The position numbers were made by a program, and so were the translations under genes. Below the pieces are notes generated by a model. It ran no database searches. It was not told where the DNA came from and was given only the letters and a program-made list of their open reading frames with translations. From contig CADDZS010000007.1 of assembly GCA_902812485.1 (NCBI GenBank), positions 1 to 35,794 of the forward strand: 35,794 nucleotides of DNA, in the 5' to 3' direction. The first letter of the stretch is position 1. Each line of letters begins with the position of its first letter. This DNA comes from an archaeon. Lineage in GTDB: Archaea > Thermoproteota > Nitrososphaeria > Nitrososphaerales > CADDZS01. This document shows positions 13,177 through 28,719 of the stretch, piece by piece.

Positions 13177-13521
13177 TTGGAGATTACACCTAGCGACGTT
13201 GATAGCATTCGGCGACTTTCGAGGAAAAGAGCCGTAAAGAGAATTTCTTCTACTCTACTCAAGAAGTTGAACCCAGAGATGCTTGCGCGCCTGATGGCTG
13301 CTTATATTGTTCTTAAAAGCAATGGGCATCCCGATTCGGACTTTATCAAATATCTAGTTGCCAAAGAGTCTCGTAGTATATTTTTGGGCATTGGGTTCAA
13401 TTTACTCGTTGCACTTTCGTCTTCTTTACTCTCTGATTCGGAGTTTCGTAAGTTGTGTTACTCCCTTGTTGCGAAGAACAGAGGTGCAGGAGGGGGAGAT
13501 CGAGTACGTATTCAAAGTTAG
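13177..13521 (+). CDS. Uncharacterised small basic protein
   Basis: 114 residues from a TTG start. It begins with a polar stretch and continues as probable alpha helices: SIRRLSRKRAVKRISSTLLKK, LNPEMLARLMAAYIVLKS and IFLGIGFNLLVALSSSLLS. The last is hydrophobic enough to be a buried or membrane-associated helix. The C-terminal end is glycine- and arginine-rich. No known family was recognised. Its stop overlaps the convergent PolD large-subunit gene by 4 nt. Confidence 0.5.
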   Translation: MEITPSDVDSIRRLSRKRAVKRISSTLLKKLNPEMLARLMAAYIVLKSNGHPDSDFIKYLVAKESRSIFLGIGFNLLVALSSSLLSDSEFRKLCYSLVAKNRGAGGGDRVRIQS

Positions 13522-16500
13522 ATGAGTGTAGTTTGGTAGTCTTGCTCCTCTTTTCTCTCAGTTCTCGACCTTGACCGTTGTTCTTGGCCCTCGACTGATT
13601 CGGAGAATTGGTCATCGTCTATGGTAGTTTGCAACCCTTCAAAGTTCGAAAGTCTAGGAGTTTTCTGGGTATCAGCAGCAACAAGTGTAGTGTTTTCGTT
13701 ACGCCTCGAAAGGACAGTGTCTGTGGACTCGGATTCACTAACTGAGGTCTTGGGAATTTGGGCCTTTTCTTCAGCAACTGTGCCTATAGTTTCGAACTCT
13801 TCAAGACCTTTTTGGAGTGCCTCTGGTTTGAAGAGAGTTGCGAGCTCCTCAGCAGCTAAAACAAATCTGCTCCGAAGGTAGTCTCCAACATCGTATTTTG
13901 ATGCAAGGCGTAATCCGAGCTGGAGATATTTCTGCACTGAGCCGCGCGTCACATTTGATTGCAATTCGCCTCCGCACATAAGGCAAACACCCTTGATCGT
14001 AGCCCTCCTATATTTTGTGCCGCATTTCTTGCAGCGAAATCTCTGTGCTGTAAAGGCTTTCGTGTTTCCGATTATATCTGGGAGAAGATGAGTTTTGAGT
14101 ACGGATTTGACCACTTCGTCAACGTTCACAGCCCTGATTTTGTTGGCGAGTTCTATCTGCCTGTCGAGCTTTTCGGTTAGGCTGTTCAGCGTCGAATAGC
14201 TTGCCCTTGCTCGGGCCACGGTTATTGAGCTAGTGTCGTGAGTGAATGAGAAATTCATGTATTGGTTTGGTGTGTCAAGCCTCTTTCCTATTGTTTCGAT
14301 AGATTGCTCCACTTCTGTTGGCGAAGCTTCTCGTAGACTCGCCTCGTAGAATTCTCTTGGGTACGTCGTCGATACGTCCATATGATGTGCTTGTCTTTGG
14401 ACCTCTTTTGGTAAAACCAGAGGCTGGACCAGCAATGGAGCATCCATGAGTCCCCCGATCATGGCTGGCAGAAATCGTTTCGAGAAATTGAGCAAAGCGT
14501 CAAGAAGGAGAATTATACTATCGCCGTCCCCGTCGCAATCTCTTCTCTTCGCAGAGTGCCAATACGGGCTAGCGAAACAAGCCTGGGCGTTAGTGAATCC
14601 TATGATCCGGCCGACGATTCCGACGGACGTATGTGGTGCCAGGCCTACTACAAGTTCACCTAATAATTGGTTTGGGTCTGTTATTTTGTAGTAAGGCTCC
14701 ATTCCGTAGTGATGCGAAAGCAAGTCGTCGAGATACCTTGCCACGGATACGAAGAACGTGCCAGCTTCGACAGGGATCACGATATCTTGGCTAAAGAGCT
14801 CAAGAAGTTGATTGTCAGATTCGAGGGGCTTACCGTTGGCATCTTTAGTGTATCCAAGTTCCTTGAGTTTTTCTACGCTTGGGCCAAGGATCTGACAAGG
14901 TCTGAAATGTGTCAATGGAAGGTTTGTAGCATCGTATCTTATTGTTCCGTCTCTGTAGACAGAGAGGCCGTATTTTTGCCTTAAGAGAGCCTTCTCCAAT
15001 CGCTCTGGGATTTTTAGAAGACTCGAAAGGCCGAGGACACCTCTCAGTGGAGGTATTGGTTTGTACTTAGTTTTTGATGATGCAGATGCGAGTTCTGTTC
15101 TTATTTGATAATCTGTCTTAATCGTTGGCCTCATTCTCCCGTTACAATGCGCGCATCTTTCCGAGATCTTCCCTGAAAGTGGGATCTCTTCTACTGAGAC
15201 CTGAAATCTGTCACTGCATTGATCGCAGATGAAAAAGACTGCGGTTTTGACGTCGCAGGAGGAGCATTTTGATCCGATTATTAATTGCTGGCATTTTGGA
15301 CATCGCAGATTGGCAATTTCAATCTGCACCGTATCGCTTTTCTCCGAAGCAAGGAGAATGTCTCGTGCGGAGCGGTTATTGGAAGCTCTCCCTATCGGGA
15401 AGAGTCCGTCTACAGGAGGACGCATCCTCCTTTGCATTGCTTTTTCTGGCCGACCGACTCGCACTCCTAGAGTTACGGAGGATTTGCTTCGAATTTCAAT
15501 ACCGGAGAACAGTGAGACGAGTTGATTTGTATTGTCCCAATTACCAGACTGGATGATTCGGTCGATCTCGTCTTTGTCCTTGGAGGTAGCGAGGCATAGT
15601 TGCAATATGTGGGAATAAGGCTCACCTATGATCAGGTTTTGGCTCTCCTCGACGTTATGCTCTACACCGAGCTTCTCTAGGAGAGCTTTCTGGTCGGAGC
15701 TAGTAACTACAACACTGACTAGAGCATTATGGCTGTTGCTCCTTGGCTCAGGTAGTTTTCCGAAGAGTTTTGGTTCGAGTCGTGTGTGTTTGATGATGTT
15801 CTCTCTTAATCCAATTGCTTCTTGGGGTGATATTTTGTCCCAGAAAAGAAGATATCTCGGATGGAGTGGAATTTGGAGGAGAGTGGAGAGACGGACTGCC
15901 TCCGAAAAAGTTAGGGGCGCAGTCACTGGGTTTGTTGTAAGCTGTTGTATCCTTTCGTAGTCTAGTGAGAGACTGAGAGACGCCGTTGTGGTGCTTGCAT
16001 AGCGCGTTTTGATCGCGTCGCTCAGCTCCAAAGCCCACCACTCTTCAACGTATCCCGAAGGAGCTAGTTTGTGATTGTTCTCAAGAAAATCCCCAAAGGA
16101 GACGAGTATGTCGCCTAAGTGAATTACAGAGTGCAATTTGTGTTTGGCAGCACTGGCCTCTCGAACGGTCTTCAGGCGGATGACAGACCCATTTTGGAGC
16201 TTTACGAGAGGTGATTCTATTGTGTCTACAGGAGCAACTGTAGCAGCTTTCCCTGGCATGCTCACCTTGATCTGGGTCCCGACCACGACTGGATAGTCTA
16301 GAAGTTCAAAGAGAGCAGGATGTATTCCGATTGTGTGGAGGCCAGTATTAGGCGCTCTCCCATATCTCAGCCTGAACCCTCCTTCATGTCCAGGCATCGA
16401 AATGACCGGTCTTCCGGAGATAACGTCGTCGAAGTGTGATGTGATGGTTTTTGTTTCTTCAGAGCCCCTTTGGTTTCCCCCCGAAAGCTCTCCGAGCCAA

Positions 16501-17309
16501 TCCCATCCTTGGATGTTAAGATTTCTGAGTAGTTTCAAAAGTTTCTTTGATTTTCCTATGAGTCCGTCGTTAAGGACTCTTAGGGCACCTCCCCTGAGTT
16601 TGTTTGTCGCGATTCTTTCCATGTTCCTGTGAAGTACGACTTCGTAGTCGTCAGTCCAAACTCCATCAATCTCGACTGGCAGGTTTTCAATTGCCTTCCT
16701 CACATCTTCGTCTGTGACTTTGTACTGAAAGTTGCCAACTTCGCGCTCGTATATTCTCAATTCCTCAAGAAATCTTCCGGTTTCATCATCGAACGAGTTC
16801 GCGATGTATCTCTCCAACCCAAGAGTTTTTCTCACTCGATCGGCGATCACGAGTGTGAGGGCAGATTCGGTGCCACCTGCTGATCTCATGGGCCCTGCAA
16901 ATTCTACACTTAGATACTCGGTGTTGTTCTTGTTGCGCTTCGCTCGGACTGCTGTGATCCCTTGGATTGGAGCGACGGTCACACCATCGGTAATTATTGC
17001 AACTCCGAGTCGAACCGCCGTCTCCATGCGATCTTGGTTCTCACCGAGTGGGTACTTGCCAAGCGCGAGCCGCTCAGCCGCAATAATTGCTGCGGCTTCT
17101 GTTCTGTTCGTTTCGAGTAGTTGTCGCAGTTCATCGGCTATTGGGACATTAATGAGTTTGGAAACTCTGTCTGGCAGGTCGAAAGCAATGTCGGCTTCAA
17201 CGTTAAGTGTAGGATCCAGTCCTAAGGCTCGAGCACGACTTGCAACTGAATGTTCTTGGAGTAGTTTTGACTCTATTGTTGTCGTATAAATCCGGTATTG
17301 AGGTGGCAT
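13518..17309 (-). CDS. polC: DNA polymerase D large (catalytic) subunit DP2
   Basis: 1263 residues from the ATG at 17309 (MPPQYRIY); a TTG twelve codons earlier (17345) is possible and sits closer to the upstream gene. DP2 is the catalytic subunit of the archaeal replicative polymerase PolD, with an RNA-polymerase-like double-psi barrel active site. In TTG-based numbering, N-terminal DP2 motifs include FAGPMRSAGGTESAL at 149-163. Cys-rich zinc modules lie at 682-734 (CPKC, CSSC, CDQC, CAHC). The catalytic DCDGDGD is at 936-942, and a zinc finger CKKC...CLMC is at 1105-1124. The last 80 residues are a polar tail with two QTT(I/L) motifs that resemble PCNA-interacting peptides. Length is normal and no intein is present. 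It is the third gene of an operon after elf1 and GGGP synthase, 7-43 nt behind the latter. Confidence 0.95.
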   Translation of the reverse strand: MPPQYRIYTTTIESKLLQEHSVASRARALGLDPTLNVEADIAFDLPDRVSKLINVPIADELRQLLETNRTEAAAIIAAERLALGKYPLGENQDRMETAVRLGVAIITDGVTVAPIQGITAVRAKRNKNNTEYLSVEFAGPMRSAGGTESALTLVIADRVRKTLGLERYIANSFDDETGRFLEELRIYEREVGNFQYKVTDEDVRKAIENLPVEIDGVWTDDYEVVLHRNMERIATNKLRGGALRVLNDGLIGKSKKLLKLLRNLNIQGWDWLGELSGGNQRGSEETKTITSHFDDVISGRPVISMPGHEGGFRLRYGRAPNTGLHTIGIHPALFELLDYPVVVGTQIKVSMPGKAATVAPVDTIESPLVKLQNGSVIRLKTVREASAAKHKLHSVIHLGDILVSFGDFLENNHKLAPSGYVEEWWALELSDAIKTRYASTTTASLSLSLDYERIQQLTTNPVTAPLTFSEAVRLSTLLQIPLHPRYLLFWDKISPQEAIGLRENIIKHTRLEPKLFGKLPEPRSNSHNALVSVVVTSSDQKALLEKLGVEHNVEESQNLIIGEPYSHILQLCLATSKDKDEIDRIIQSGNWDNTNQLVSLFSGIEIRSKSSVTLGVRVGRPEKAMQRRMRPPVDGLFPIGRASNNRSARDILLASEKSDTVQIEIANLRCPKCQQLIIGSKCSSCDVKTAVFFICDQCSDRFQVSVEEIPLSGKISERCAHCNGRMRPTIKTDYQIRTELASASSKTKYKPIPPLRGVLGLSSLLKIPERLEKALLRQKYGLSVYRDGTIRYDATNLPLTHFRPCQILGPSVEKLKELGYTKDANGKPLESDNQLLELFSQDIVIPVEAGTFFVSVARYLDDLLSHHYGMEPYYKITDPNQLLGELVVGLAPHTSVGIVGRIIGFTNAQACFASPYWHSAKRRDCDGDGDSIILLLDALLNFSKRFLPAMIGGLMDAPLLVQPLVLPKEVQRQAHHMDVSTTYPREFYEASLREASPTEVEQSIETIGKRLDTPNQYMNFSFTHDTSSITVARARASYSTLNSLTEKLDRQIELANKIRAVNVDEVVKSVLKTHLLPDIIGNTKAFTAQRFRCKKCGTKYRRATIKGVCLMCGGELQSNVTRGSVQKYLQLGLRLASKYDVGDYLRSRFVLAAEELATLFKPEALQKGLEEFETIGTVAEEKAQIPKTSVSESESTDTVLSRRNENTTLVAADTQKTPRLSNFEGLQTTIDDDQFSESVEGQEQRSRSRTERKEEQDYQTTLI

Positions 17310-17352
17310 GTTCTTGGCGTGTAATTGCGAGTCGAACTGGAGCAATGTGACG

Positions 17353-18087
17353 TCACTTATGTGATATTACTCGACTTATATCACGCAAAGTGTCTTGAAA
17401 CTTGGGTTGCTCTAGGAGGTTCCCCACAACTAGGATGTCTGCGCCGGCTTTTGCTATTTTGGAAGCGGTTTCGGCAGATTTGATACCACCTCCTACCAGG
17501 AGGATCCCTTCGTAGACATTGCGAACCGCCTCGACGATGCGAGTAGGGACCGCTCCGTCGGCGCCGGAGCCGGCTTCCAGATACAGAAAGCGCATACCAA
17601 GATATTGGGCCGCGAGAGCATACATTGATGCCAGTGAGGGCTTGTCAGGAGGAATACCTCGTGACCTTCCGATGAAACCTGCAGATCCCCCTTCTCCTAT
17701 AATCAAATAGGCCATGGGCAACGCTGGCAGCTGGTATTTCCTTACGGCAAGTGCCCCAAGGGCCTGGGCTTCCGTTATGAAGTAAGGGTCGTCAGAGTTC
17801 ATCAGGGAAGAGAAGAAAATAGCATCTGCGCTTGGCGATATTCCGGAGACATTTCCAGGAAATAATATCACGAGTGATGTGACGTCACGCTTTACAGCTC
17901 TCACTACTTTGTCTAACTCGATTTGGTCGATTGCTGTTGAGCCGCCTACGAGTATGATCTTAGCGCCTGCAGATTCTGCTTGTCGGGCTAGTTTCGAGGC
18001 TTTTTTTGGGCTGATATTCTCAGAATCGATGAGGGCCGCGCAGATTGGCCCAGTCGTTGTGAGAAGCTCGTTGATTCTAAGTTCCAC
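17353..18087 (-). CDS. Geranylgeranylglyceryl phosphate synthase
   Basis: 244 residues from GTG. It catalyses the first committed step of archaeal ether-lipid synthesis, joining sn-glycerol-1-phosphate to geranylgeranyl diphosphate. The TIM-barrel signature is complete: LIDSEN near 20, LVGGSTAID at 46-54, LFPGNVSGIS at 75-84, the phosphate loop YLEAGSGA at 169-176, VGGGIKS at 198-204 and VVGNLLE at 220-226. These follow the PcrB/GGGPS superfamily; length and Mg site (the Asp in LIDSEN) are normal. It overlaps the upstream elf1 gene by 11 nt and is followed at once by the PolD large subunit, so lipid and replication genes share one transcript. Confidence 0.93.
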   Translation of the reverse strand: MELRINELLTTTGPICAALIDSENISPKKASKLARQAESAGAKIILVGGSTAIDQIELDKVVRAVKRDVTSLVILFPGNVSGISPSADAIFFSSLMNSDDPYFITEAQALGALAVRKYQLPALPMAYLIIGEGGSAGFIGRSRGIPPDKPSLASMYALAAQYLGMRFLYLEAGSGADGAVPTRIVEAVRNVYEGILLVGGGIKSAETASKIAKAGADILVVGNLLEQPKFQDTLRDISRVISHK

Positions 18088-18349
18088 TTTGGGAAGCTGG
18101 AGTTGTCTCAGGAGTTATTACACCTGTTTGTTCTTGGTTGAAACTATCAACAAATTCGTTGTAGATGTCGATTGGTTCTTTTCCTTGGTTGGAAACTTCT
18201 TTGCTACGACCACAACTTCCACATGAGATTATGGTAGTATCCTGCTTTGCTTGGAGGCGGACGGAAACCATTCCGCAGTTCGGGCATGTGAACACCTTTG
18301 GGAGCGTCTTCTTGACAACATGGAGTACTCTTCTCCTTCTTCGGCCCAT
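18077..18349 (-). CDS. Transcription elongation factor Elf1-like zinc-ribbon protein
   Basis: 90 residues. A basic N-terminus (MGRRRRRVLHVVKKTLP) leads to the four-cysteine ribbon TCPNCG (Cys22, Cys25) and SCGSCG (Cys43, Cys46). EPIDIYNEFVDSFN follows, the helix that characterises the Elf1 family in archaea and eukaryotes, then a disordered Thr/Ser tail. In eukaryotes Elf1 binds RNA polymerase II near the downstream DNA channel; archaeal homologues are inferred to act the same way. It is the first gene of the operon with GGGP synthase and PolD large subunit and has a clear TATA box 52-60 nt upstream. Confidence 0.88.
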   Translation of the reverse strand: MGRRRRRVLHVVKKTLPKVFTCPNCGMVSVRLQAKQDTTIISCGSCGRSKEVSNQGKEPIDIYNEFVDSFNQEQTGVITPETTPASQSGT

Positions 18350-18399
18350 TTTCTATTCACTCTTCTTCGAGAATGATTGGGGGATTTGTTTGCGATTTC

Positions 18400-18408
18400 T
18401 TTTATACC
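18400..18408 (-). promoter_or_regulatory. TATA box of the elf1-GGGPS-PolD operon
   Basis: The minus strand reads GGTATAAAA. Initiation near 18375 leaves a leader of about 25 nt. The 180-nt gap to the divergent gene at 18533 shows no other clear promoter element. Confidence 0.55.
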
Positions 18409-18532
18409 ATTTGCCTTTGAGGACGTATCCTCTAGGGTAAGAGAGAAGAACAGGTTGCGTTTTTGTACGATTGGTGTTTGTGATACTTTTTTGTATGACG
18501 GCTGGTGTTTTTAGCTGGGCGTAAGCATTCCT

Positions 18533-18910
18533 TTGGATCCTCTGCTAGAGTTTCTTTTGAAGAGGGCGTCTGTTACACAGATTCAATTCGAGACGATGGT
18601 TCTATCAAAGGGGGAGGGGAGACTAGGGAAAAAAGCATCGTTGCGGAAAGGAGGCCCAGTGTCGAAGGGCTCTTTTTGGAGGACCCTTCGACAAGCAAGA
18701 AGCAATGTGGAGTCTTCTGTTTATACGGTATTGTTGATGAGTTATGCTGGGTTGATTCCTAGTGGAAAGTTGAATCAGCTTGCCAGAGTAGCTAGTCTTG
18801 TGCAGGAAATTCGTAAGCAAGACCTCGGGAAGGAAGATCTGGCAAGAGTGGAGAGGGCTGCAGAAGAATTTGTCCAGGAATTTAGTGGTAGGGCAAAAGG
18901 TTATTTGTGA
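18533..18910 (+). CDS. Conserved-looking helical protein near the origin, function unknown
   Basis: 125 residues from TTG. It reads as well-folded alpha-helical sequence: PLLEFLLKRASVTQIQFETM, a basic loop, then SFWRTLRQARSNVESSVYTV and LNQLARVASLVQEIR. The C-terminal region is acidic and basic in alternation, ending in FSGRAKGYL. No membrane helix or metal motif is seen. I do not recognise the family. The gene lies 36 nt before a membrane-tethered winged-helix gene on the same strand, so they may be co-transcribed. Confidence 0.6.
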   Translation: MDPLLEFLLKRASVTQIQFETMVLSKGEGRLGKKASLRKGGPVSKGSFWRTLRQARSNVESSVYTVLLMSYAGLIPSGKLNQLARVASLVQEIRKQDLGKEDLARVERAAEEFVQEFSGRAKGYL

Positions 18911-18946
18911 TACGTTGTGATTACGATAACGTGATTTGATGTCACG

Positions 18947-19570
18947 TTGGATTTGCTGACTTTTCTGTTGCTGCTGAGCGTGTTATGTGTAGGAGCTATC
19001 TTGGTAGTCTTGTTTGTGATTTCTAGGAAATCACTTCGGTTGGGGGAAGGTTGGAAGGTCGATCTTTTGGGGATTGTGCAGGAATTTGATAAGAGGGTTA
19101 GACAGCTGCAGGAACGTTTGGTGGAACAAGATGTAGCGTTGGAGCTTCAGAAGTTAAGGCTGTCTCGGCTTGAAGAGAGCATTGGTCGTGAATCAACTTG
19201 GAGAGAGAAAGAGAGGCCAGTGGAGGTAAGCGCTGATATTCGGGAAGGGTCTGATCTTTATCGACGAAGGGAGGAAGTCTCGGTTGGGAAAAGGTTTGAG
19301 AGGCGTTCAGGGCGGTCAGAGGGTTTGAAAGAGATGGCATTGGGGTCGCAGCTTGAATTTCTCAAGGCTGTTGCGGAGCTTGGTGGTGTTGCGACGTCTA
19401 GGGAGGTTCAGCTAAAGCTCGGAAAATCGCGTGAGCATACTGCCAGGATGATGAGTTCTTTGTTCATGGATGGGTTTGTTTCTAGGGATGATAAATCGCG
19501 GCCGTTCAAGTATGCTCTGTCGTCTAAAGGTCGGGAGATGCTTGCAGATTTTGTGGGCAAGGACGACTAG
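18947..19570 (+). CDS. Membrane-tethered winged-helix DNA-binding protein
   Basis: 207 residues from TTG. One N-terminal membrane helix (about 4-26) is followed by a predicted coiled coil (about 44-80, FDKRVRQLQERLVEQDVAL and onward), a charged linker, and a C-terminal winged-helix domain from about 133. In that domain QLEFLKAVAELGG, VATSREVQLKLGKSREHTAR and DGFVSRDDKSRPFKYALS have the helix-turn-helix-wing order of MarR/ArsR-type domains. The layout places a DNA-binding domain under the membrane close to the replication origin. Target and signal are unknown. It ends in a 4-nt overlap with the convergent gene at 19567. Confidence 0.65.
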   Translation: MDLLTFLLLLSVLCVGAILVVLFVISRKSLRLGEGWKVDLLGIVQEFDKRVRQLQERLVEQDVALELQKLRLSRLEESIGRESTWREKERPVEVSADIREGSDLYRRREEVSVGKRFERRSGRSEGLKEMALGSQLEFLKAVAELGGVATSREVQLKLGKSREHTARMMSSLFMDGFVSRDDKSRPFKYALSSKGREMLADFVGKDD

Positions 19571-20064
19571 GTTGTGATGATGTCAGGAGCTGGTGTGAAG
19601 GATAGGGAAAGATCTGTGCTTCGAGAACTATCGTCGGGGTTGTCCCGTAGGAGTCTGTATAGCCAACTGGATCCATTTCTGGTTCGGCTGAGTATTCGTC
19701 GCTGGAAAAGGCGTGTTAAGTAAGCAGACACGGTGGGAAGACTGAGGTCAAGTCCCATTTCTTCGCGTAATGCCTGAAGAATGTCTTTCGAACTGAAGGT
19801 GCCGAATTTGAATTTTTTTGTTATTAGGAGGTACACTCTTGAGAAGTTCGTGTCAGCGAGTGGCTCATTTATGGATGGTTGTTCGTGTGACAAGGACGGT
19901 TGTTGCGGCGTCGGAGGAGATGGTATGTCGAGAAGGCGGATTGTCTTAATGAGTTCTTCTTTTCTTGCTCCCTCAACCGTCAAAGTGTATCTGGCGCCGT
20001 ACTGATCTGTAAATTCGATCTTGACTCTTGGGGAGTTTTTTTGTGTGGATGAGAAGCTTGGCAT
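19567..20064 (-). CDS. Predicted winged-helix protein next to the origin
   Basis: 165 residues. The N-terminal part (about 12-48, VKIEFTDQYGARYTLTVEG) looks like a small beta domain, followed by a Pro/Ser-rich linker (about 49-70). The second half, FSRVYLLITKKFKFGTFSSK, DILQALREEMG, LSLPTVSAYLTRLFQRRILS and SSWLYRLL, has the pattern of a winged helix-turn-helix. The tail is disordered and Ser/Asp-rich. No family can be named with certainty. It is the nearest gene left of the ORB repeats and faces away from them, so its promoter lies within the origin flank. Its plus strand is strongly G-rich although the gene reads minus. Confidence 0.6.
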   Translation of the reverse strand: MPSFSSTQKNSPRVKIEFTDQYGARYTLTVEGARKEELIKTIRLLDIPSPPTPQQPSLSHEQPSINEPLADTNFSRVYLLITKKFKFGTFSSKDILQALREEMGLDLSLPTVSAYLTRLFQRRILSRTRNGSSWLYRLLRDNPDDSSRSTDLSLSFTPAPDIITT

Positions 20065-20266
20065 TTTGAATTCGCCAGGTGCAGAATGGCATTAAGCGAT
20101 AGATTGTTGTGGTAGGCTATGTGGGATTTCGGTTCTAATAACTTGTCAAGGTGTAAAGTTGTAAACATTGAGTCTAGGACATTTCCCTAACATTTTGGAT
20201 ATTATGAGAGGTTTGTATGTTGAACGCGACTTGGTAGGTGAGTTGATAGTATTTTCGGAGCCAAGT

Positions 20267-20280
20267 CTCCAGTGGAAAGG
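20267..20280 (+). repeat. ORB repeat 1 (Orc1/Cdc6-binding site)
   Basis: CTCCAGTGGAAAGG followed by TACGGGTGG, giving core plus G-rich arm. It is the leftmost copy. Confidence 0.8.
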
Positions 20281-20326
20281 TACGGGTGGTGTTGATGTCT
20301 TTGCTTGTCAACCGTTGCAAACTGGA

Positions 20327-20338
20327 CTCCAGTGGAAG
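20327..20338 (+). repeat. ORB repeat 2
   Basis: CTCCAGTGGAAG followed by TATAGGGGTG. It lies exactly 60 nt from repeat 1 and has the same orientation. Confidence 0.8.
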
Positions 20339-20427
20339 TATAGGGGTGTTAGCGGCTTTTACCGGCTTTTCGTTCTTAATTGGTGGTTGACGTTGGGCGG
20401 GTGGGGGTTTCCCCGTGCTCCCATTGG

Positions 20428-20440
20428 TTTCCAGTGGAAG
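20428..20440 (+). repeat. ORB repeat 3
   Basis: TTTCCAGTGGAAG, 102 nt from repeat 2, same orientation. The G-rich arm is weak here (TGAAGTG), so this is the most degenerate copy. Confidence 0.72.
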
Positions 20441-20479
20441 TGAAGTGATCTCGCTTTGTTGTAGCGTTATGGAGTAAGC

Positions 20480-20530
20480 GTTAGTTGATATTGATATTAG
20501 CTATAATTCACACTATGGTTTTTATTGCTC
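20480..20530. other. AT-rich element in oriC, candidate unwinding site
   Basis: About 50 nt dominated by A and T, with repeated GATATT and a TATAATT, located between ORB repeats 3 and 4. The strand skew changes sign within or just after it. Role inferred from position and composition. Confidence 0.5.
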
Positions 20531-20596
20531 AAATAGAGTCCCATGAATTTGACTTCACAACCAGAACCTCTTAGCTAACCCACAAAATAAAATGGT

Positions 20597-20610
20597 CTCC
20601 AGTGGAAAAA
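20597..20610 (+). repeat. ORB repeat 4, at the orc1 promoter
   Basis: CTCCAGTGGAAAAA followed by CAGGTCAGTGGG. It lies 168 nt from repeat 3 and ends 24 nt before the orc1 ATG, directly behind the TATA-like AAATAAAA at 20585-20592. Bound initiator would cover the transcription start, so autorepression is likely. Confidence 0.78.
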
Positions 20611-20634
20611 CAGGTCAGTGGGTCATGAATAAGA

Positions 20635-21891
20635 ATGAAAAGTTCACTTCAAGAACAACCCGATCAACTCGAATCCATTTTCACAAAAGCTCTCACCTCA
20701 AACAGACTGATTACCCAAGACGCTGTCTTGAGATCTGACTACTTACCTAACAAACTTCCATTCAGGGGCCTCCAAATCGCTTCCCTAGGTGAGATACTAG
20801 CACCGACGTTACACTACTCAAAACCCTCGAATGTCCTAATCTATGGCAAGACAGGGACCGGAAAAACTGCTGTCACCAAATACACAATGAACAAACTCAA
20901 AGAAACCTCCATAGCAAACCAGATACCCTTAGCCTTCATCTACACGAATGCTCGTCTCTGCGGCACCGAATACAGGCTGCTTGCCGAAATGGCCGCAGCC
21001 ACAAACCTCCAGATCCCATTCACAGGTCTCGCGCTAACAGAAGTTCTCTCTCGACTCGAAAACCACATCCGAAGGCAAAGATCACCCATCATCTTGGTGA
21101 TCGATGAGGTGGACTACCTCGTAAAAACATACAACGATGACTTACTGTACAATCTAACAACACTCTCAGAACGAATCACCCCTTCTTTCATATCCATCAT
21201 TGGAATTTCAAACGACCTCCAATTCAAGGATCAGCTAGGAGCAAGAGTACAGAGCCGCCTCTCAGAAGAAGAGATAGTCTTTCCACCTTACACTGTTCCA
21301 GAGCTAGCAAGCATACTCAAAGAACGGGCCACAATGGCCCTCCGCCAAGGTTCGTACACTGAAGCAGCCATCAACCTATGCGCTGCACTATCCGCCTCCG
21401 AGCACGGAGACGCAAGGCGAGCGGTCGATCTGCTCCGGGTTGGAGCAGAGACCGCGGAAAGAGAAGGGAGCGAGATCCTCGAAGAAAAACACATTCGATT
21501 AGCATTACAAAAAATAGACCAAGACAGAGTAAACGAAGCCCTCAAAACACTACCCCTACACGCCAAGCTTCTCCTACTAGGGGCCGCCACAGCGTCCCAC
21601 CCCACTCAAAACTACGTGTCAACCGGAGCCCTTTATGAAACCTATAGCAATCTCGCAAAGGCCTGCGACATCGAACCACTGACTACAAGAAGAGCCTCCT
21701 CCATACTCACTGAGCTCCACACCTTGGGTCTGCTCTCAGCACACCTAGTCAACTATGGGAGATATGGCCGAACCAAGCAAATAAGGCCACAAATATCACT
21801 AGATACAATCCAAAAAGCCTTTTCAGAAGACCCAATAATCGGAACCATAACAACAAAGAAAACCCAATCCCCACAAACCCCAACCAACTAG
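20635..21891 (+). CDS. cdc6: Orc1/Cdc6 replication initiator
   Basis: 418 residues. It is an AAA+ ATPase that recognises ORB elements and loads the MCM helicase. Walker A GKTGTGKT is at 71-78, Walker B VIDEVD at 155-160, sensor 1 with Asn193 in GISND, and sensor 2 Arg pair in DARRAVDLLR (259-268). The C-terminal winged-helix DNA-binding domain spans about 300-400, with a Pro/Thr tail after it. All key residues are intact. The gene is extremely C- and A-rich on its coding strand compared with genes further away, matching the skew on the right of the origin. It is expressed from the origin region, with an ORB overlapping its promoter, and converges on the PolD small-subunit gene. Confidence 0.95.
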   Translation: MKSSLQEQPDQLESIFTKALTSNRLITQDAVLRSDYLPNKLPFRGLQIASLGEILAPTLHYSKPSNVLIYGKTGTGKTAVTKYTMNKLKETSIANQIPLAFIYTNARLCGTEYRLLAEMAAATNLQIPFTGLALTEVLSRLENHIRRQRSPIILVIDEVDYLVKTYNDDLLYNLTTLSERITPSFISIIGISNDLQFKDQLGARVQSRLSEEEIVFPPYTVPELASILKERATMALRQGSYTEAAINLCAALSASEHGDARRAVDLLRVGAETAEREGSEILEEKHIRLALQKIDQDRVNEALKTLPLHAKLLLLGAATASHPTQNYVSTGALYETYSNLAKACDIEPLTTRRASSILTELHTLGLLSAHLVNYGRYGRTKQIRPQISLDTIQKAFSEDPIIGTITTKKTQSPQTPTN

Positions 21892-22018
21892 CGACACTCA
21901 CACCCAACATAACCAAGACCCAATGCTCTCTTCTCCTTTACCCATTTCCGCCCACGACACTCGCAAAAAGACCCCATCATCAATCCTCGAAGCCCCTTAT
22001 GATACCAAAACTTTCCAC

Positions 22019-23644
22019 TCAACCACTTGTCACAAAGTCCAAGACAGAAACCTCCAGGGTAGAAAGATTAACCACCGGAACAACACCCGGCGTTGGTATA
22101 ATGCCAAGATTCGCTTGGTAAACAGTCTGCCCTTGCCATGTTCCTGAATTGATCAACAATGTCCCCCTGTATATATCACACCCAACCGTGTGAACATGAC
22201 CAGCATGGAAAATATCCGGCACCTCCCCAATGACAAGCAGGTCTTTTTTCATCGGCGCCACCGGGGTACGCAGTCCGAAAGAAGGTGCGAGATGCCTGGC
22301 CCTCAACAACACTTTCATAGCCTCTGTAGGCCGCTCATATGAAGTACCAGAAACCGATGCAAACACATCATCAAGACTTCTTCCATGAAACACCAAAACT
22401 CTCACCCCGCTTAATCTAAGAAAACAAGGATCCCCAACCATACAGATATTCTCCAACTCGTACAAACTTGAGGCATACTCGACCGGAATCTTGGGTTGGG
22501 GAAGAGCTTGTCTCGTACAATCGTGATTGCCTGGCGCTATTATCACTTGAACTGAACGCGGTATCTTCGCAAACTTCTCCAACACCATATCATACTGCTT
22601 CTTAACATCCATCTCCACCAGCTCTTCCTCCTGACCAGGAAAAACACCAACGCCATCGACTAGATCCCCTCCAACCACCAAGTATTTTACACGACGAGCT
22701 ATCTCCTCATAGGAAATATCTCCGGACATCTTTCCTTGAAAGCGTCCGTTCAACCATGAAACAAATCTATCAAAGGCCCCTTCTAAGAATCTCCTGCTCC
22801 CCATGTGCAAATCCGAACTAAAAACAGCAAACTCCGTTTTCTTTGACGTTGACACTGCCTTGCTAGGGACATCAGGATAGATCAGCTTCTTCGCCACTAC
22901 TGTCCCTTCCGTCGAAACCTCCCCTTCTACCGAAACGCAACTATCCAATAGCACATCCTCAACATTTCTACAAAACTCTTCGCCAAATCCTACTACTACT
23001 AACTGCCCCGTGTCATCTTCCAACACAACACGCGCTTGTCGCCCCTCAGATTTCTTCGACAAAACAAGCCCCACAACACCTACTTTTTCGCCTGCGCCGA
23101 GCGATGAAACTTCAGACACCTTCACGAGACGACTGTCCCTTGTTCGCGCCGAAAGAATTCGTCCCAGCTTCTCGTAACGATCCTTGAAGAGTGCCGAGAA
23201 TCCATCGCCGAGACTAGATTGAACTTCCTCAGACGAATCCATCACAACCTCAAAACTTCCAATCTCTTGACCGCCTTCTATGCTGGACCATTCCCCCGAA
23301 CCGTCAGTTATATCACCGCTCTTTTGTATCTTGGGATTCTCCAATTCGTCGTAAAGCTCAGGGAACTCCTCAATAAGATCCTTGACTGAGATCCTACTCC
23401 TATTCTTGCTGAAACCGCCTTCAATAACGGGGCCCTTGGAAGTCGACTTTACACCGATGAGACGATCCACGATACGCTCCACCAGCTTTCGGCCACTGTA
23501 TGACTCTCCAACTGTTCCTACGCGAACCCCTATATTCGACTCCGCCACTTTGCCTAGCATCACTACGACCTCCGGGTCCACCTCAAATCCCTCCTCTAGG
23601 AGTCTCCTCAACAATCCGGATAGAGCCTCATCACGTGCAACCAT
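22019..23644 (-). CDS. polB: DNA polymerase D small subunit DP1 (3'-5' exonuclease)
   Basis: 541 residues, within the normal range. DP1 provides proofreading and contacts DP2. After an N-terminal helical domain and a polar linker (about 70-150), an OB-fold region covers about 175-255 (VGVVGLVLSKKS, RVVLEDDTGQLVVVGFG). The Mre11-like phosphoesterase domain follows: SDLHMGS with Asp278 and His280, GGDLVDG at 325-331, PGNHD at 371-375, His420 in LVFHGRS, and GHVH at 482-485. All metal ligands expected for an active exonuclease are visible. Transcription runs toward the origin. The gene converges with orc1 across a 127-nt spacer and lies 56 nt after the phosphohexomutase gene, so those two may share a transcript. 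Confidence 0.95.
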   Translation of the reverse strand: MVARDEALSGLLRRLLEEGFEVDPEVVVMLGKVAESNIGVRVGTVGESYSGRKLVERIVDRLIGVKSTSKGPVIEGGFSKNRSRISVKDLIEEFPELYDELENPKIQKSGDITDGSGEWSSIEGGQEIGSFEVVMDSSEEVQSSLGDGFSALFKDRYEKLGRILSARTRDSRLVKVSEVSSLGAGEKVGVVGLVLSKKSEGRQARVVLEDDTGQLVVVGFGEEFCRNVEDVLLDSCVSVEGEVSTEGTVVAKKLIYPDVPSKAVSTSKKTEFAVFSSDLHMGSRRFLEGAFDRFVSWLNGRFQGKMSGDISYEEIARRVKYLVVGGDLVDGVGVFPGQEEELVEMDVKKQYDMVLEKFAKIPRSVQVIIAPGNHDCTRQALPQPKIPVEYASSLYELENICMVGDPCFLRLSGVRVLVFHGRSLDDVFASVSGTSYERPTEAMKVLLRARHLAPSFGLRTPVAPMKKDLLVIGEVPDIFHAGHVHTVGCDIYRGTLLINSGTWQGQTVYQANLGIIPTPGVVPVVNLSTLEVSVLDFVTSG

Positions 23645-23700
23645 TTCGAACTCTACGCACCATCAGTACCAACATCCCTCAATTTGCATCCCAAAAAACT

Positions 23701-25083
23701 CTAGACATCGACCGCCTTCCAAGCTAACACACTTCTCCCTAATGCAAGCAACTCATGCGCTTTTCCCTTTTCCCTAGACTCAACATACACCCTTGCCTTC
23801 TTCTCAGTACCAGAACGACGTAGCATAAGCCACGATCCATCTTTCAAAGAGACTTTAACCCCGTCACGCAGGTCAATTGATCCCACCGACTCTCTTAGAT
23901 GCTCTTGTAGCCTCGAAGCAACTTCTGAATATTCTAGTAAGCCCTCCATTGAAACATTTTCTTGAAGATTGTAGTACCGTGGAAAGGAGGAGACTACTTC
24001 ACCTAGATTTCTCCCATCCTCGGACAAATACTGAGTTACCAACACTGCGGCATAGATCCCATCCTCCCAGTATCCCCAACGTGGATCAACAGCCTTACTC
24101 GGCTCCGTTGCAAAGATGCCTCTTTGTTTGTAAAGTTCTTCAAATGTCTTACCGAGCCGCGACCTGTAAATTCTGCAACCATGATCCTTCGCTACTTCCT
24201 CTAATGCGTTCGAGCTATTCATCGATAGTATCACGGTGCCTTTCCTCCCACTTTCAAGAATTATTTTCAGCAACAAACAAGAAACAACATAATCCGGAAG
24301 AACCGCTCCACCACCATCTATCATAACCAGCCTATCTGCATCCCCATCATGCGCAAGAGCGAAATCCACTCCCATCCTTCTACAAAGTTCGGCAGTCTCT
24401 CCCAAGCTTTCTGGAGTTGGCTCCGGGGGCCTCCCAGGAAACACGCTACTTTGATGTGAATTCACTGTAACAACCTTGTGTCCAAGAGCAGACAGAATCC
24501 GTGGTGTCACATCAGTCGCGGTTCCATTAGCACAATCAACCAAAATCTTAAGCTCCTTCTTTGTGCCACGAACACTTTTACAAAGGGAATCAACATACTT
24601 AGAAGGTGACTCTTCGTTGTCGTAAGTTGATCCGAATCCTAGTTCTTCACCAGCACTTCTCTTCGTGTACTCACTACTCTCCTGAATAAGCTCTTCCAGC
24701 TTGTGCTCGGCTTCCAAAGAAAATTCTATGCCATCTGTTCCGTACACCTTTATCCCTGCATACTCCGGCGGGTTATGAGAAGCGGTCACAGAGAATCCTG
24801 CATGCAGTTTGTTGTTTTTGATGCTAAAGGCGAGAACAGGCGTCGGTATTATACCATAACTCTCCACATCGCTACCATACCAATTCATAGCAGAACAGAC
24901 AAGCAAAGCAAGTATAGCTGAACTCCGCCTGGTATCATACCCAACCCCAAACCGACCTTGTCCGAGCATCTTCTGAACCCCGAAACACACAGCTAGAGTC
25001 TCCCTTAGGAACACTTCTTGGCCGTACAGTCCTCGAATTCCCGCGGTCCCGAACTTCACTCGGATTCTCGAATTTCCTAACAT
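23701..25083 (-). CDS. Phosphohexomutase (phosphomannomutase / phosphoglucosamine mutase family)
   Basis: 460 residues with all four alpha-D-phosphohexomutase signatures: N-terminal KFGTAGIRG, phosphoserine loop TASHNPP with Ser102, metal loop DGDADR at 246-251, a sugar-binding motif in the degenerate form ATEPSKAVD (instead of GE(K/M)SGH), and phosphate-binding RRSGTEKKARVYVES near the C-terminus. Such enzymes interconvert hexose 1- and 6-phosphates for glycan, N-glycan and UDP-sugar synthesis. The altered sugar loop makes the exact substrate (Man, Glc or GlcN phosphate) uncertain. The gene lies directly upstream of the PolD small subunit on the same strand, and 137 nt beyond the end of glyA. 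Confidence 0.88.
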   Translation of the reverse strand: MLGNSRIRVKFGTAGIRGLYGQEVFLRETLAVCFGVQKMLGQGRFGVGYDTRRSSAILALLVCSAMNWYGSDVESYGIIPTPVLAFSIKNNKLHAGFSVTASHNPPEYAGIKVYGTDGIEFSLEAEHKLEELIQESSEYTKRSAGEELGFGSTYDNEESPSKYVDSLCKSVRGTKKELKILVDCANGTATDVTPRILSALGHKVVTVNSHQSSVFPGRPPEPTPESLGETAELCRRMGVDFALAHDGDADRLVMIDGGGAVLPDYVVSCLLLKIILESGRKGTVILSMNSSNALEEVAKDHGCRIYRSRLGKTFEELYKQRGIFATEPSKAVDPRWGYWEDGIYAAVLVTQYLSEDGRNLGEVVSSFPRYYNLQENVSMEGLLEYSEVASRLQEHLRESVGSIDLRDGVKVSLKDGSWLMLRRSGTEKKARVYVESREKGKAHELLALGRSVLAWKAVDV

Positions 25084-25204
25084 TGTTTGAACCTTCTTTC
25101 AACCTCTAACGACGAGAATTCAAATCCTTCGCATTGTAAAATATCTTCTTTACTTGTCACGGAACGCCATCAGGGCCCGCGAAGAAACTCCCGCCTAAGT
25201 ACAC

Positions 25205-25210
25205 AAAAAA
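25205..25210 (-). terminator. T-run downstream of glyA
   Basis: Six consecutive T on the minus strand, about 12 nt after the glyA stop. Archaeal RNA polymerase terminates at such runs. Confidence 0.4.
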
Positions 25211-25221
25211 GATCGGGACTC

Positions 25222-26589
25222 TCAGGAGCGAACTTTCACGTATTTATACGCGGGGAGAGCCGTTTCAAACGCATACTGCACCTTTTGAAAAGCACGCCTT
25301 AACTCTATCACGTCCTCTCTTACTTCAGTTGTCGAGCTTTTCTTCATAATTACGCGAGCCATAAGCCTTGCAATCTCCTTCATCTCGCTCGGCCCCATCC
25401 CAAGCCTGGTTACTTCGCTCGTTCCAACACGCAATCCTCCTGGGTGCATGTAATGCCTTCCAGCCTTCACGTCCCCCGGAATCAGCTGCCTGTTTACTAT
25501 GATATTTGCTCTCTCGAGCTCCTTTTCCAACGTTCCTCCATCCCCATACTTTGTGACATCTATTGCAACCTGATGAGACTTTGTGAAGCCCAAATTGGAA
25601 GCAAGAACATCAACCCCCTCCTCAGATAGGGCATCCGCTAATGCGCGCGCGTTTGCGATCACTTGACTCGCATATCTTTCTCCAAACTCTAAAAACTCTG
25701 CGAAGGCAATCGCCTTCCCTGCTACATTTTGTAGATGATGATTGCTCGCTGTGCCAGGGAACGCTGCTGCTTTGATCTTTTCCGAGTATTTTTCCCATGA
25801 GATAACAGCCCCCCCTTGAGGGCCGAAGAGAGTCTTGTGAGTAGAGAGAGTCATCGCGTCCGCTCCTTCAGAAAGAGGCTTTTGAAATTGCTTCCCCGCG
25901 ATGAGGCCAGCAACATGGGCTGCGTCATAGCACACGAAAATATTTTCGCTTTTCAGGAAATCAGACAGCTCTCTTACTGGATGAGGGAAGAGAAACAAAC
26001 TTCCCCCGAACATCACCAATTTCGGTCGCTTGTTTTCGCTAATGAGCTTCTTGATCTTCTCTTTTGTCTTATCAACGTCGATATTCCAATTGTCCCTGTC
26101 GAAGGCAAAATACTCAACGTTTAGCCCGTGAACCAGACCTGCTGTCCCATTGAATTCCTTGCGGCCAGTAGAGATATGACCGCCGTTTGGTATAGCGAGC
26201 GCCATCATCGTATCGCCTGGGTCCGTGAAAGCCGAGTATACTGTGAGATTTGCACACACACCAGAAACTGGCCTGACATCCACGAACTGTGCTTCAAACA
26301 GTTGCCTTGCTAGATCCATGCAAAGAAGCTCGACTTTGTCGATGTAAACGCAACCCGCGTAGACTCGCTCTCCAGCCCAACCATGCGTAAGCTAGAAACC
26401 CTTTGTCAAGTTTCAAGCTTTCTCCGCGTACCTGTTCCCGAAATCTGATATTATCGCTTCGCGAACAGCTGGGCTGGGAACGTTCTCAGATGCGATCAGT
26501 GGGATGCTGTTGCTGAGCCACTCGTGGTGATCCTGAAGTGCTTGAAACACTTCGTCATATGCAGCTTTTGGATTCAATTCCAAGACCAT
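25222..26589 (-). CDS. glyA: Serine hydroxymethyltransferase, split by a probable 39-nt BHB-type intron
   Basis: The gene is best read as two exons: 26589-26422 (56 codons, ATG start MVLELNPKAA) and 26382-25222 (386 codons plus stop), giving 442 residues, the normal size. SHMT makes glycine and a methylene-pterin from serine with PLP. Exon 1 has IASENVPSPAVREAIISDFG and ends NRYAE; exon 2 continues GWAGERVYAGC. The joined NRYAEGWAGERVYAG matches the family consensus, with Glu56 equivalent to the E. coli folate-site Glu57. The PLP lysine lies in TLSTHKTLFGP (about Lys239), and YDAAHVAG carries the ring-nitrogen Asp. Unspliced, translation would stop after 58 residues. An internal ATG at 26319 gives a 365-residue frame that lacks the folate and dimer region and is probably not a true start. 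A TATA box sits 25-33 nt upstream of exon 1. Confidence 0.85.
26383..26421 (-). other. Probable archaeal protein-coding intron (BHB type) in glyA
   Basis: 39 nt containing in-frame TGA and TAG. Numbered on the minus strand, nucleotides 2-6 and 8-12 (AAGCT, GAAAC) pair with 29-33 and 23-27 (AGCTT, GTTTC), with one U-U mismatch between the two 5-bp blocks and a 10-nt loop. Outside this stem, exon GCGG faces intron ACGC (three pairs and one G-A). This leaves 3-nt bulges AG|A at the 5' junction and AT|G at the 3' junction. Cutting after the second base of each bulge, as the tRNA-splicing endonuclease does, gives GAG-GGT and exactly the expected SHMT sequence. The outer helix is weak (two pairs), so this is a relaxed motif. 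Confidence 0.8.
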
Positions 26590-26590
26590 C

Positions 26591-26598
26591 GGTTAACC
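26591..26598. promoter_or_regulatory. GGTTAACC palindrome between glyA TATA box and start
   Basis: Perfect 8-nt palindrome immediately before the glyA ATG, where transcription should begin. It may be an operator. Its short length makes chance occurrence possible. Confidence 0.25.
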
Positions 26599-26613
26599 AA
26601 TTCAAACGCCGTT

Positions 26614-26622
26614 GATAATAAA
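26614..26622 (-). promoter_or_regulatory. TATA box of glyA
   Basis: TTTATTATC on the minus strand, 25-33 nt upstream of the ATG at 26589. It supports that ATG, at the head of exon 1, as the real start and predicts an almost leaderless mRNA. Confidence 0.5.
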
Positions 26623-26788
26623 GAGTTCTTGACTAGTGCAGCTCCAAAAGAGTGTTTTCTGATGCTTGCTTTGAAGAAGCGGAAGATGATGCACCTTATT
26701 CTCCTCCTCAATCCGTCGATGAGGAGTAATCGTTTTATCCCGAATTCGCGTCCAAAACCGCCACGCCAGGGCAAGCCAGAAGCGAGAT

Positions 26789-27502
26789 TTGGCAATCAGT
26801 TTAAACCTAATTCTGATAATCGTAGAGCTGATTCTCCTAGTCCCAACTCTCTTATTACTTGTTCTCGGTCAGAGAGAAGAGAGAGGAAGACAAACACTCC
26901 TTCGGGAAATGGCCAAGACAGCTAGAATTGTGGCGAGAGAAGAATACTTCGGCTCCGTCAGATCTAGCATGCAAAGCGCCACGAGCACGATCAAGGGCTC
27001 GATCACCGGCTCGCAGCCGAAGACACCCGAGCAGGAAGAACAGGTTGCGAAGATCGTCGAAGAGATAAATAGGGCGAAAGCAAGAGGAGTCAGCATCCAA
27101 TATCTACTGCCTAAATCCCAAGACAGACTTGCTCTTGCTTCTAGCTACAAAATGGCCGGAGCAGAAATAAGATTTCATCCTGGCCTCTTAATAAGCGATA
27201 TCAGATACGTCGTGTTTGACCACAGACTCACTGTCATAGGTTTGCCGAGCAGGGTTGGTGAGAACGAGCCGACAAGAGAAGGGTATATGATCCCCTCTGA
27301 GGGCTTGGCGGAGATATTCCTACAACAATTCGATAGCAAATGGGCACAAGCCATCAATTACGACGACTATCTTAAGGAGCTCTTGGTTGAAATTCGCAAT
27401 CACAATCCCAATGTCTCGACCCAACTGCTCGCTTCCGAGCTCAAGGTTCCGGAGCCAGAAGTGAAGCGTGTTCTGGGGCTACAAGGGGCCAAGATCTCAT
27501 AA
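26789..27502 (+). CDS. Membrane-anchored PLD-like domain protein with C-terminal helix-turn-helix-like end
   Basis: 237 residues from TTG. A membrane helix at about 4-26 is followed by a charged helix, then a domain with the alpha/beta pattern of the phospholipase D superfamily. Key pieces are RAKARGVSIQYLLPKSQDRLA, MAGAEIRFHPGLLISDIRYVVFD, LTVIGLPSRVGE and IFLQQFDSKWAQA. The catalytic HxK of active PLD enzymes is absent at the expected place (SDIRYVVFD). The domain therefore probably binds a ligand, as in TrmB-type sugar-sensing regulators. The C-terminal HNPNVSTQLLASELKVPEPEV looks like a small helix-turn-helix. A membrane-held sensor or regulator is a reasonable guess. It is divergent from glyA with about 200 nt between. 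Confidence 0.6.
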   Translation: MAISLNLILIIVELILLVPTLLLLVLGQREERGRQTLLREMAKTARIVAREEYFGSVRSSMQSATSTIKGSITGSQPKTPEQEEQVAKIVEEINRAKARGVSIQYLLPKSQDRLALASSYKMAGAEIRFHPGLLISDIRYVVFDHRLTVIGLPSRVGENEPTREGYMIPSEGLAEIFLQQFDSKWAQAINYDDYLKELLVEIRNHNPNVSTQLLASELKVPEPEVKRVLGLQGAKIS

Positions 27503-27552
27503 AAACACTCGTCTTGTCAAGGCCGGCTCTTGAAAGATGTAAGCTTCAAGAA

Positions 27553-28719
27553 CTACGCAAAGAATGCGAAAATGAATGCCAACACTCCCCAGATAGCAAC
27601 ACCAACACACGCAATTGAGTATGCAATCAATAGCAATCTACCTCCTCCCAATCTTGAAGACGAATAACCGTAAAATATTGGGAATGCCGGCAGAACAAGA
27701 CGAGGAATCGAAACTGCGGGAGTTCCTTCGACGAATAAGAGAGGAAACAGAATCGCAAGCGAGCAAGCAACAAAGAACCATTTCCTCGGATGCTTAGACC
27801 GAGCCAAAAGATAAGCACCTGCGAACATGAACGCCTCAAACAAAATATTCACAACAAGCCAATAGCTCGGCGTCAGAGGTATTCCCAGCACACCCCAATT
27901 CTGCCTTGTGAACCATCCTTGCCCATTGGTATTCAATAACCACATCGCTTGACCCACCGGACTCACAACATTTACCCCCCAAATGCTCTGCTCCAGACTG
28001 AAGTAGGTGAACGCATTATAAGTGTCTAATATGTAAAAGAAGACAATTGACAAAGCTGCTACAACAACTGGTGTTGAAAATGCAATGGCCCTCTTCAATG
28101 CTATGATTAGACTACTATTTCCCTTCCTCCTTGATACGTGAGAGAGGAAAAGTGGAGCTATGATTGCAACACTGTACAAATCAAACAAAGCGAGGGCAAA
28201 ACAGAGCCCTGAAAGTAAATAATCGTCTTTCGAGACGAAAAAGAACGCCAATGCAATAAACACAAGAGCGATGCTATCCGAGTACGCGACCGTCGAGTAA
28301 ACCAAGAAACTTGGAAACAATTCAGCTAGTAGTGCAGTTTTGAGGTCAAATAAGAACAAAATTACAATTGGAAATATGAAGCCAAAAAGATTAGAAATAA
28401 CGAGCGCAGAAATCCAATACGACCCTATGATTGACGCAAGAGCGCGTATCAACAATGGATAAAACGGAGAAAAGGCGTACAAATACGATACATTGCTCGG
28501 CGTAGATTGCGGGTAACCGCTCTTCGATATTGTCTGATAATTCGTTCCGTCCCAAGCCAAGCTCATCTCTTGAGCGAAGTTTGGACTCCCATGCCATGTT
28601 ATGTAGACGCTTGCAAAGATGATTCCTTTGGCTATGGCCAAAGGGAGAAGAAGTCGACCAACTAATTTGAAAGTGGATTTCCCATCAAACGAGTTGCCAA
28701 AGGAAATATCCACGATCAC
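27553..28719 (-). CDS. PIG-V-like GT-C family mannosyltransferase
   Basis: 388 residues from GTG with about nine or ten membrane helices. The first loop carries AWDGTNYQTISKSGYP, the WD-(G/S)-x-(H/N/W)-Y signature of the PIG-V / GT76-related GT-C transferases. In these an Asp outside the first helix serves dolichyl-phosphate-sugar-dependent transfer. FSPFYPLLIRAL, another common early motif, follows. Later sequence includes NTNGQGWFTRQNWG and PRLVLPAFPIFYG, matching the typical late R-(Y/L)-x-x-P-x-FP region. It probably adds a hexose to lipid-linked or surface glycans outside the membrane. It is 85 nt downstream of the thermopsin-like gene's stop on the same strand. Confidence 0.75.
   Translation of the reverse strand: MIVDISFGNSFDGKSTFKLVGRLLLPLAIAKGIIFASVYITWHGSPNFAQEMSLAWDGTNYQTISKSGYPQSTPSNVSYLYAFSPFYPLLIRALASIIGSYWISALVISNLFGFIFPIVILFLFDLKTALLAELFPSFLVYSTVAYSDSIALVFIALAFFFVSKDDYLLSGLCFALALFDLYSVAIIAPLFLSHVSRRKGNSSLIIALKRAIAFSTPVVVAALSIVFFYILDTYNAFTYFSLEQSIWGVNVVSPVGQAMWLLNTNGQGWFTRQNWGVLGIPLTPSYWLVVNILFEAFMFAGAYLLARSKHPRKWFFVACSLAILFPLLFVEGTPAVSIPRLVLPAFPIFYGYSSSRLGGGRLLLIAYSIACVGVAIWGVLAFIFAFFA

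Follow-up and report, generated by a model that had tools for sequence, protein, structure and literature searches.

The window analysed here is a complete contig of 35,794 bases (CADDZS010000007.1) from a metagenome-assembled genome (MAG; GCA_902812485.1; 2.36 Mb in 211 contigs, 94% complete) of the archaeal order Nitrososphaerales, and it carries a predicted replication origin at which the base composition of the two strands switches sharply. The Orc1/Cdc6 initiator gene (cdc6) at this locus was above the cut-off for Cdc6_C and Cdc6_lid and was the genome's sole match to the Cdc6 protein; in the comparison of Cdc6, the closest named relatives were MAGs of the Nitrososphaerales. The arrangement is that of an archaeal origin: orc1/cdc6 is adjacent, four TCCAGTGGAA boxes resembling origin recognition boxes (ORBs) are placed around an AT-rich stretch, which is probably the duplex unwinding element, and the boxes are shared by six relatives. 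An inverted repeat of the GGGGTTTCCCC type was also noted at 20,404-20,415, between the second and third boxes. In Nitrosopumilus maritimus, a related thaumarchaeon, a single origin has been mapped (review, PMC4010727), and it was placed by ORB repeats beside cdc/cdc6 (PMC5797428). From the boxes, the initiator, the synteny and this mapped origin, we infer that chromosomal replication starts at the predicted cdc6 origin. The DNA around it is under a strand-asymmetric pressure that acts within about 5 kb on both sides (detectable to about 8 kb), flips in the AT-rich element and ignores the direction of the genes.

On the plus strand, the GC skew in 1-kb windows changed from +0.43 (at 18.6 kb) to -0.41 (at 22.9 kb). 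The maximum of the cumulative GC skew was at 20,500 and that of the cumulative G+T excess at 20,527, between boxes 3 and 4 and upstream of orc1/cdc6. A preliminary description of this DNA had put the sign flip at about 20.5 kb in the AT-rich element and had regarded the switch as centred on the origin; its eight counts of G and C on single lines of the sequence were all exact on recount, and both statements are borne out by the cumulative curves, with the flip lying amid the initiator gene, the four boxes and the AT-rich element. As the genome background, 748,593 bases (about one third of the genome) were sampled from contigs other than the window. The GC swing with 2 kb on each side was 600 at the origin against a maximum of 260 in the background (z 7.5), and the G+T swing with 4 kb on each side was 1604 against a maximum of 454 (z = 13.4). 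For silent sites, the contrast was taken as the value left minus the value right of the origin, with correction for gene direction: the GC contrast at the origin was 0.76 (null mean 0.00, sd 0.09, maximum 0.32; n = 167), and the T/A contrast was 0.43 (null sd 0.08). Equal skew blocks away from the origin, which had been named as evidence that would speak against an origin, were sought in the same background, and none approached the one at the origin. The features of the locus are listed in Table 1.

Table 1. Positions in the window of the predicted origin, the skewed arms and the neighbouring genes.
Feature	Position	Strand	Remarks
PolD large subunit DP2	13518..17345	-	left arm; 4-fold GC skew +0.24
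Left arm	13518..20500	+	plus strand G+T-rich at silent sites
PcrB-family gene	17353..18087	-	left arm; 4-fold GC skew +0.28
125-aa conserved gene (orf125)	18533..18910	+	no family match; 4-fold GC skew +0.48
207-aa conserved gene (orf207)	18947..19570	+	no family match; G-rich side; 4-fold GC skew +0.67
165-aa gene	19567..20064	-	weak Penicillinase_R-like match, below Pfam cut-off; kept beside origin
ORB-like box TCCAGTGGAA	20268..20277	+	exact match; same boxes of family relatives have trailing AGGGGT
ORB-like box TCCAGTGGAA	20328..20337	+	exact match; followed by AGGGGTG
ORB-like box TCCAGTGGAA	20430..20439	+	exact match
AT-rich element	20480..20559		68-72% AT (40-nt steps); contains switch point
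Switch point	20500..20527		peaks of cumulative GC skew and cumulative G+T excess
Right arm	20527..28719	+	plus strand C+A-rich at silent sites
ORB-like box TCCAGTGGAA	20598..20607	+	exact match; cdc6 side of AT-rich element
Orc1/Cdc6 initiator	20635..21891	+	Cdc6_C 4e-23, Cdc6_lid 1.3e-21; coding strand strongly C+A-rich
PolD small subunit DP1	22019..23644	-	coding strand G+T-rich; residues shifted to G/V/C/W/F type
Phosphoglucomutase/phosphomannomutase-like gene (PMM)	23701..25083	-	right arm
Serine hydroxymethyltransferase-like gene (SHMT)	25222..26319	-	right arm

The skew fades with distance on both sides. The GC skew of the plus strand at 4-fold degenerate sites was +0.46 to +0.67 at 18.5-20.5 kb (+0.48 and +0.67 in two plus-strand genes and +0.46 in a minus-strand gene) and about +0.24 to +0.28 at 13.5-18 kb; in the right arm it was -0.55 in the plus-strand gene cdc6 and -0.33 and -0.38 in minus-strand genes, followed by -0.24, then by -0.17 to -0.33, and about zero beyond 28.8 kb. 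Between points 1-2 kb to the left and to the right of the origin, the silent-site skew jumps by nearly 1.0, and it is close to zero at positions below about 11.5 kb and above about 29 kb. The fitted decay length was 4.66 kb (3.0-6.0) with the skew about zero beyond about 8-9 kb, in agreement with the earlier remark that the bias fades beyond a few kb. That it does not depend on gene direction was likewise supported: the sign of the skew tracks the side of the origin, and the fitted effect of the gene strand was -0.01 (-0.13 to 0.07). The intergenic DNA had GC skews of +0.43 on the left and -0.40 on the right.

The proteins encoded near the origin also carry the bias. The index of C+A codons was 0.47 for Cdc6 in the window versus 0.18-0.29 in the relatives of the same family, -0.22 versus 0.00 to 0.16 for DP1, and -0.25 versus -0.07 to 0.33 for the 207-aa protein. 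Where the coding strand is C+A-rich (Cdc6 and the 165-aa protein, whose gene is on the minus strand of the G-rich side and thus has a C-rich coding strand), residues with C/A-rich codons were commoner than in most relatives; where it is G+T-rich (DP1 and the 207-aa protein), they were rarer than in all compared relatives. Since the proteins of neighbouring genes in opposite directions drift in opposite ways, a pattern that is not predicted from selection on protein function, the pressure is mutational, not selective, and the amino-acid composition beside the origin is altered according to the coding strand. As for an oriented repeat motif, no 6- or 8-mer in the skewed arms was above the Markov expectation.

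The preliminary description had proposed to look for the skew in related genomes. The family contains eight further genomes, in six of which a matching Cdc6 was found (the family relatives compared here); the genome collection held no second genome of the window's genus, and the identity of Cdc6 between the window and these relatives is only about 60%. In each of the six, the skew at the orthologous origin agrees in sign with that of the window and flips close to the boxes that precede cdc6. The corrected GC contrasts were 0.90 in G003, 0.62 in G006, 0.50 in G008 and 0.34 in G007 (the contig of G005 was too short for this estimate), and the fitted decay lengths were 5.4 kb (G003), 2.9 kb (G008) and 2.0 kb (G007). 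Gene order in the family is kept only within about 6 kb on each side of cdc6, similar to the reach of the skew.

In G002 and G003, the two genomes of genus g2 (loci L028 and L030), some 6-8 kb of additional DNA immediately next to the origin, about 1-9 kb to the left of cdc6, separates the 207-aa gene from the 165-aa gene. By this insertion, the block DP2-PcrB-orf125-orf207 is parted from the origin by about 6-8 kb. In the window, the block lies 1.3-5 kb from the origin and its silent GC skew is +0.30 ± 0.09; in G003, it lies 9-13 kb from the origin with a skew of +0.04 ± 0.10, having lost the bias while its orientation and side are unchanged. The DNA of G003 that is presently 1.1-6 kb from the origin has a silent GC skew of +0.29 to +0.35. 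As the moved block is without skew and the newly adjacent DNA is skewed, the distance from the origin, not the identity of the genes, sets the bias. Altered composition and protein drift are confined to the vicinity of the origin, and the loss of skew in displaced genes fits local mutagenesis linked to initiation.

In the other families of the order that were sampled, the corrected GC contrast (single-locus estimates with limited baselines, as are all order-wide contrasts given here) was mostly positive, i.e., of the same inverted polarity, and weaker than in the window's family; in family f4 it was near zero, and in two genomes (G174 and G020) the weak skew extends over tens of kb. The T/A contrast varied, and families f4, f6 and f12, the single f11 genome, most loci labelled Bathyarchaeota and a Njordarchaeum locus had it with the sign reversed. 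At cdc6 of the latter loci (L095 for Njordarchaeum; L075, L084, L100, L105 and other Bathyarchaeota-labelled loci), it was -0.2 to -0.7 with a T-rich leading side, and the GC contrast was small. From these opposite T/A contrasts, origin-centred skews may occur across archaea with a chemistry specific to each lineage. As for the gene order, the 207- and 165-aa genes stay beside the origin in most of the sampled genomes and the 125-aa gene in fewer (16 matches). In family f7 (G014, G040, G046, G066 and G128), DP1 is oppositely oriented and lies about 7.2 kb to the left of cdc6; in most of the order, it is found to the right of cdc6 and converges with it. Note that three records titled Omnitrophota, Thermococcus and Proteobacteria (L076, L086 and L094) have Cdc6 genes near this archaeal group, which suggests that these bins are mislabelled or contaminated.

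In our view, the skew is a mutational footprint left by the initiation of replication at the single Orc1/Cdc6 origin, with a probability of roughly 0.68; that its cause is mutational, linked to replication and centred on the origin is, as a broader statement, very probable. If replication starts at the cdc6 origin, the geometry of the forks makes the C+A-rich strand the leading strand and the G+T-rich strand, itself made as the lagging strand, its template. The helicases would leave the origin while leading-strand synthesis begins late or from primers of the opposing fork, so that the template of the leading strand would be single-stranded over the first kilobases and the lagging template would soon be covered by short Okazaki fragments. 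The skew could then be built up, until the polymerase reaches the helicase again, by deamination of C to T and of A to G on the strand so exposed, or by errors made while the first kilobases are synthesised. The 4-fold sites of cdc6 (A.36, C.38, G.11, T.14, versus A.28, C.22, G.20, T.30 in the genome) suggest changes of G to A and of T to C on the leading strand, that is, of C to T and of A to G on its template, and C-to-T and A-to-G changes are the pattern of the mitochondrial DNA strands that are left single (PMC3269012). The step with the exposed leading-strand template is nevertheless tentative, and the wider statement, that initiation regularly leaves kilobases of this template single-stranded and that the sequence beside the origin is its fossil record, is doubtful. 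If it is true, the decay length would be the run of the helicase before leading-strand synthesis catches up.

Several observations weigh against this explanation. The mitochondrial type of deamination fits the 4-fold composition of the window and fits that of G008 poorly: in G008, G is lost and C is gained with A and T nearly unchanged, which the two deamination transitions alone do not predict, so that another chemistry or polymerase errors may be at work. At the origin of G002, only the T/A part was found (0.31), with almost no GC skew, and the A/T signature is strong in the window only, G007 and G008 showing a clear GC part only. The DP2 block is near the origin in G006 and G007, yet its skew is about zero, which indicates a shorter decay there (about 2 kb in G007). 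A repair defect was sought as a reason for the amplitude, and it does not explain it, because UDG (two copies) and endonuclease V are both present in the genome; the match to NucS was below the cut-off, which is uninformative because that of G006 was also below it. In addition, the types of substitution were read from composition only, in a genus without a close relative, and the activity of the origin is a prediction from sequence.

The same skew could come from the polymerases instead of from damage to single strands, if copying of the first kilobases is left to another, or a less accurate, pair of enzymes, e.g., with the lagging strand made by PolB, or in an early error-prone mode of PolD and primase. 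An identical skew would arise from G-T mispairs formed at G or T of the lagging template, and the mixed spectrum in the relatives fits such errors at least as well as deamination. Local error-prone synthesis with a polymerase-delta signature is known from 2-kb domains at human origins (PMC9645720), Pol delta contributes to the start of leading strands in yeast (PMC5829166), and PolB of Thermococcus acts on the lagging strand (PMC13136892). A decay length of 5 kb is large beside the 2-kb human domain, and we regard this explanation as somewhat unlikely. A leading-strand bias might also act on the whole chromosome and be seen only near the origin, if fork direction is reproducible only there and initiation elsewhere is scattered or dependent on recombination. 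Thermococcus is able to replicate with a flat marker-frequency profile (PMC13136892), and the weaker skew over tens of kb in G174 and G020 indicates that the reach varies between lineages. The forks would, however, have to meet on average about 5-8 kb from the only origin, which needs dense initiation nearby; no further skew switch was found in 749 kb, and the displaced block of G003 lost its bias with the same orientation and side, so that this explanation is improbable. Erasure of such a chromosome-wide bias by inversions everywhere except in the long-conserved cdc6 block would account for the similar extents of conserved gene order and skew in the family. It was largely rejected by the synteny test: the skew declines with distance inside the conserved block, the same genes are skewed or not by distance, and non-conserved DNA of G003 has gained skew, leaving this account with a very small share of the probability.

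An effect of transcription, coding or R-loops would agree with most genes of the right arm (DP1, PMM and SHMT), the coding strands of which are G+T-rich as non-template deamination would give. It was rejected from the gene-by-gene signs, with cdc6, the strongest gene of the right arm, and the 165-aa gene being opposite in sign, from the intergenic DNA, which follows the side, and from the null effect of the gene strand; the chance that it is the cause is negligible. In bacteria, a maximum of the cumulative GC skew marks the terminus, and the switch could accordingly be read as a terminus between ordinary G-rich leading strands. This is hardly credible in view of Orc1/Cdc6 and the boxes at the flip, of a skew that is gone within 8 kb rather than extending outward, and of the single origin mapped in N. 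maritimus (PMC4010727). The skew might also have nothing to do with forks and belong to the site itself, for instance to a segregation or centromere-like element, and the amplitude and reach do resemble those at Candida albicans centromeres (PMC3459929). The flip is, however, between origin boxes beside the only orc1/cdc6, and the same study inferred that the Candida centromere jump and the replication skew of the species are opposite in polarity; we give this possibility little weight.

The footprint of initiation favoured above suggests that starting replication, besides continuing it, mutates DNA in a strand-specific manner. The bias is so strong that the initiator and the replicative polymerase encoded next to the origin have been reshaped in their amino-acid make-up, and it would provide both a handle, from sequence only, on how archaeal leading-strand synthesis begins and a sharp marker for locating origins in silico in uncultured Nitrososphaerales. 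A local origin skew in Thaumarchaeota was not found in the open-access literature. According to a large 2026 survey of complete genomes in 4-kb windows, strand-specific mutation is much weaker in archaea than in bacteria (PMC12999951); with windows of this size, a bias of a few kilobases around one origin would be easily missed.

The polarity had been described beforehand as opposite to the usual one, which is right with respect to most bacteria. The bacterial GC skew of the leading strand likewise reflects strand-asymmetric mutation that flips at the origin; the leading strand of the window is C-rich instead, and its skew, with a 4.7-kb decay length, is not replichore-wide. A C+A-rich leading strand is, however, known in the budding yeasts Saccharomyces, Kluyveromyces and Candida (PMC3459929), and the cumulative GC skew of third-position and non-coding sites is similarly maximal at ori3 of Haloferax volcanii, where the passages available describe the chromosome scale in 4,096-base windows and do not report confinement to kilobases (PMC12999951). 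The origins of S. cerevisiae and K. lactis resemble that of the window in the A+C-rich leading strand, the jump at the origin, the fading with distance and the expression at silent sites (PMC3459929), and the enrichment of both A and C is present in the window in the GC and AT skews alike. The yeast jump averages about 9% and fades over about 20 kb to the points where forks from many origins meet, in contrast to the silent-site jump near 1.0, the one detected initiator gene and the 4.7-kb decay length of the window, in the vicinity of which neither another origin nor a meeting point of forks is known. Human constitutive origins share local, initiation-tied mutation pressure with base skews centred on the origins (PMC9645720), and differ in that several signatures, central breaks and a 2-kb domain are found there, the case of the window being purely compositional and of longer reach. 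The mitochondrial heavy strand is comparable in that the G+T-rich strand is again the one for which a single-stranded state has been proposed, accompanied by C-to-T and A-to-G changes (PMC3269012), although the window has a chromosomal origin, a decay within kilobases on both sides and a strand exposure that is conjectural here. The nearest in shape is the centromere of Candida albicans, at which a GC-skew jump of 74% fades within about 3 kb (PMC3459929), but it was judged unrelated to replication and is not beside an archaeal-type Orc1/Cdc6 origin. The polarity of the window is thus already known elsewhere; its amplitude and its confinement to kilobases, in which it differs from H. volcanii ori3 and the budding yeasts, are the unusual parts.

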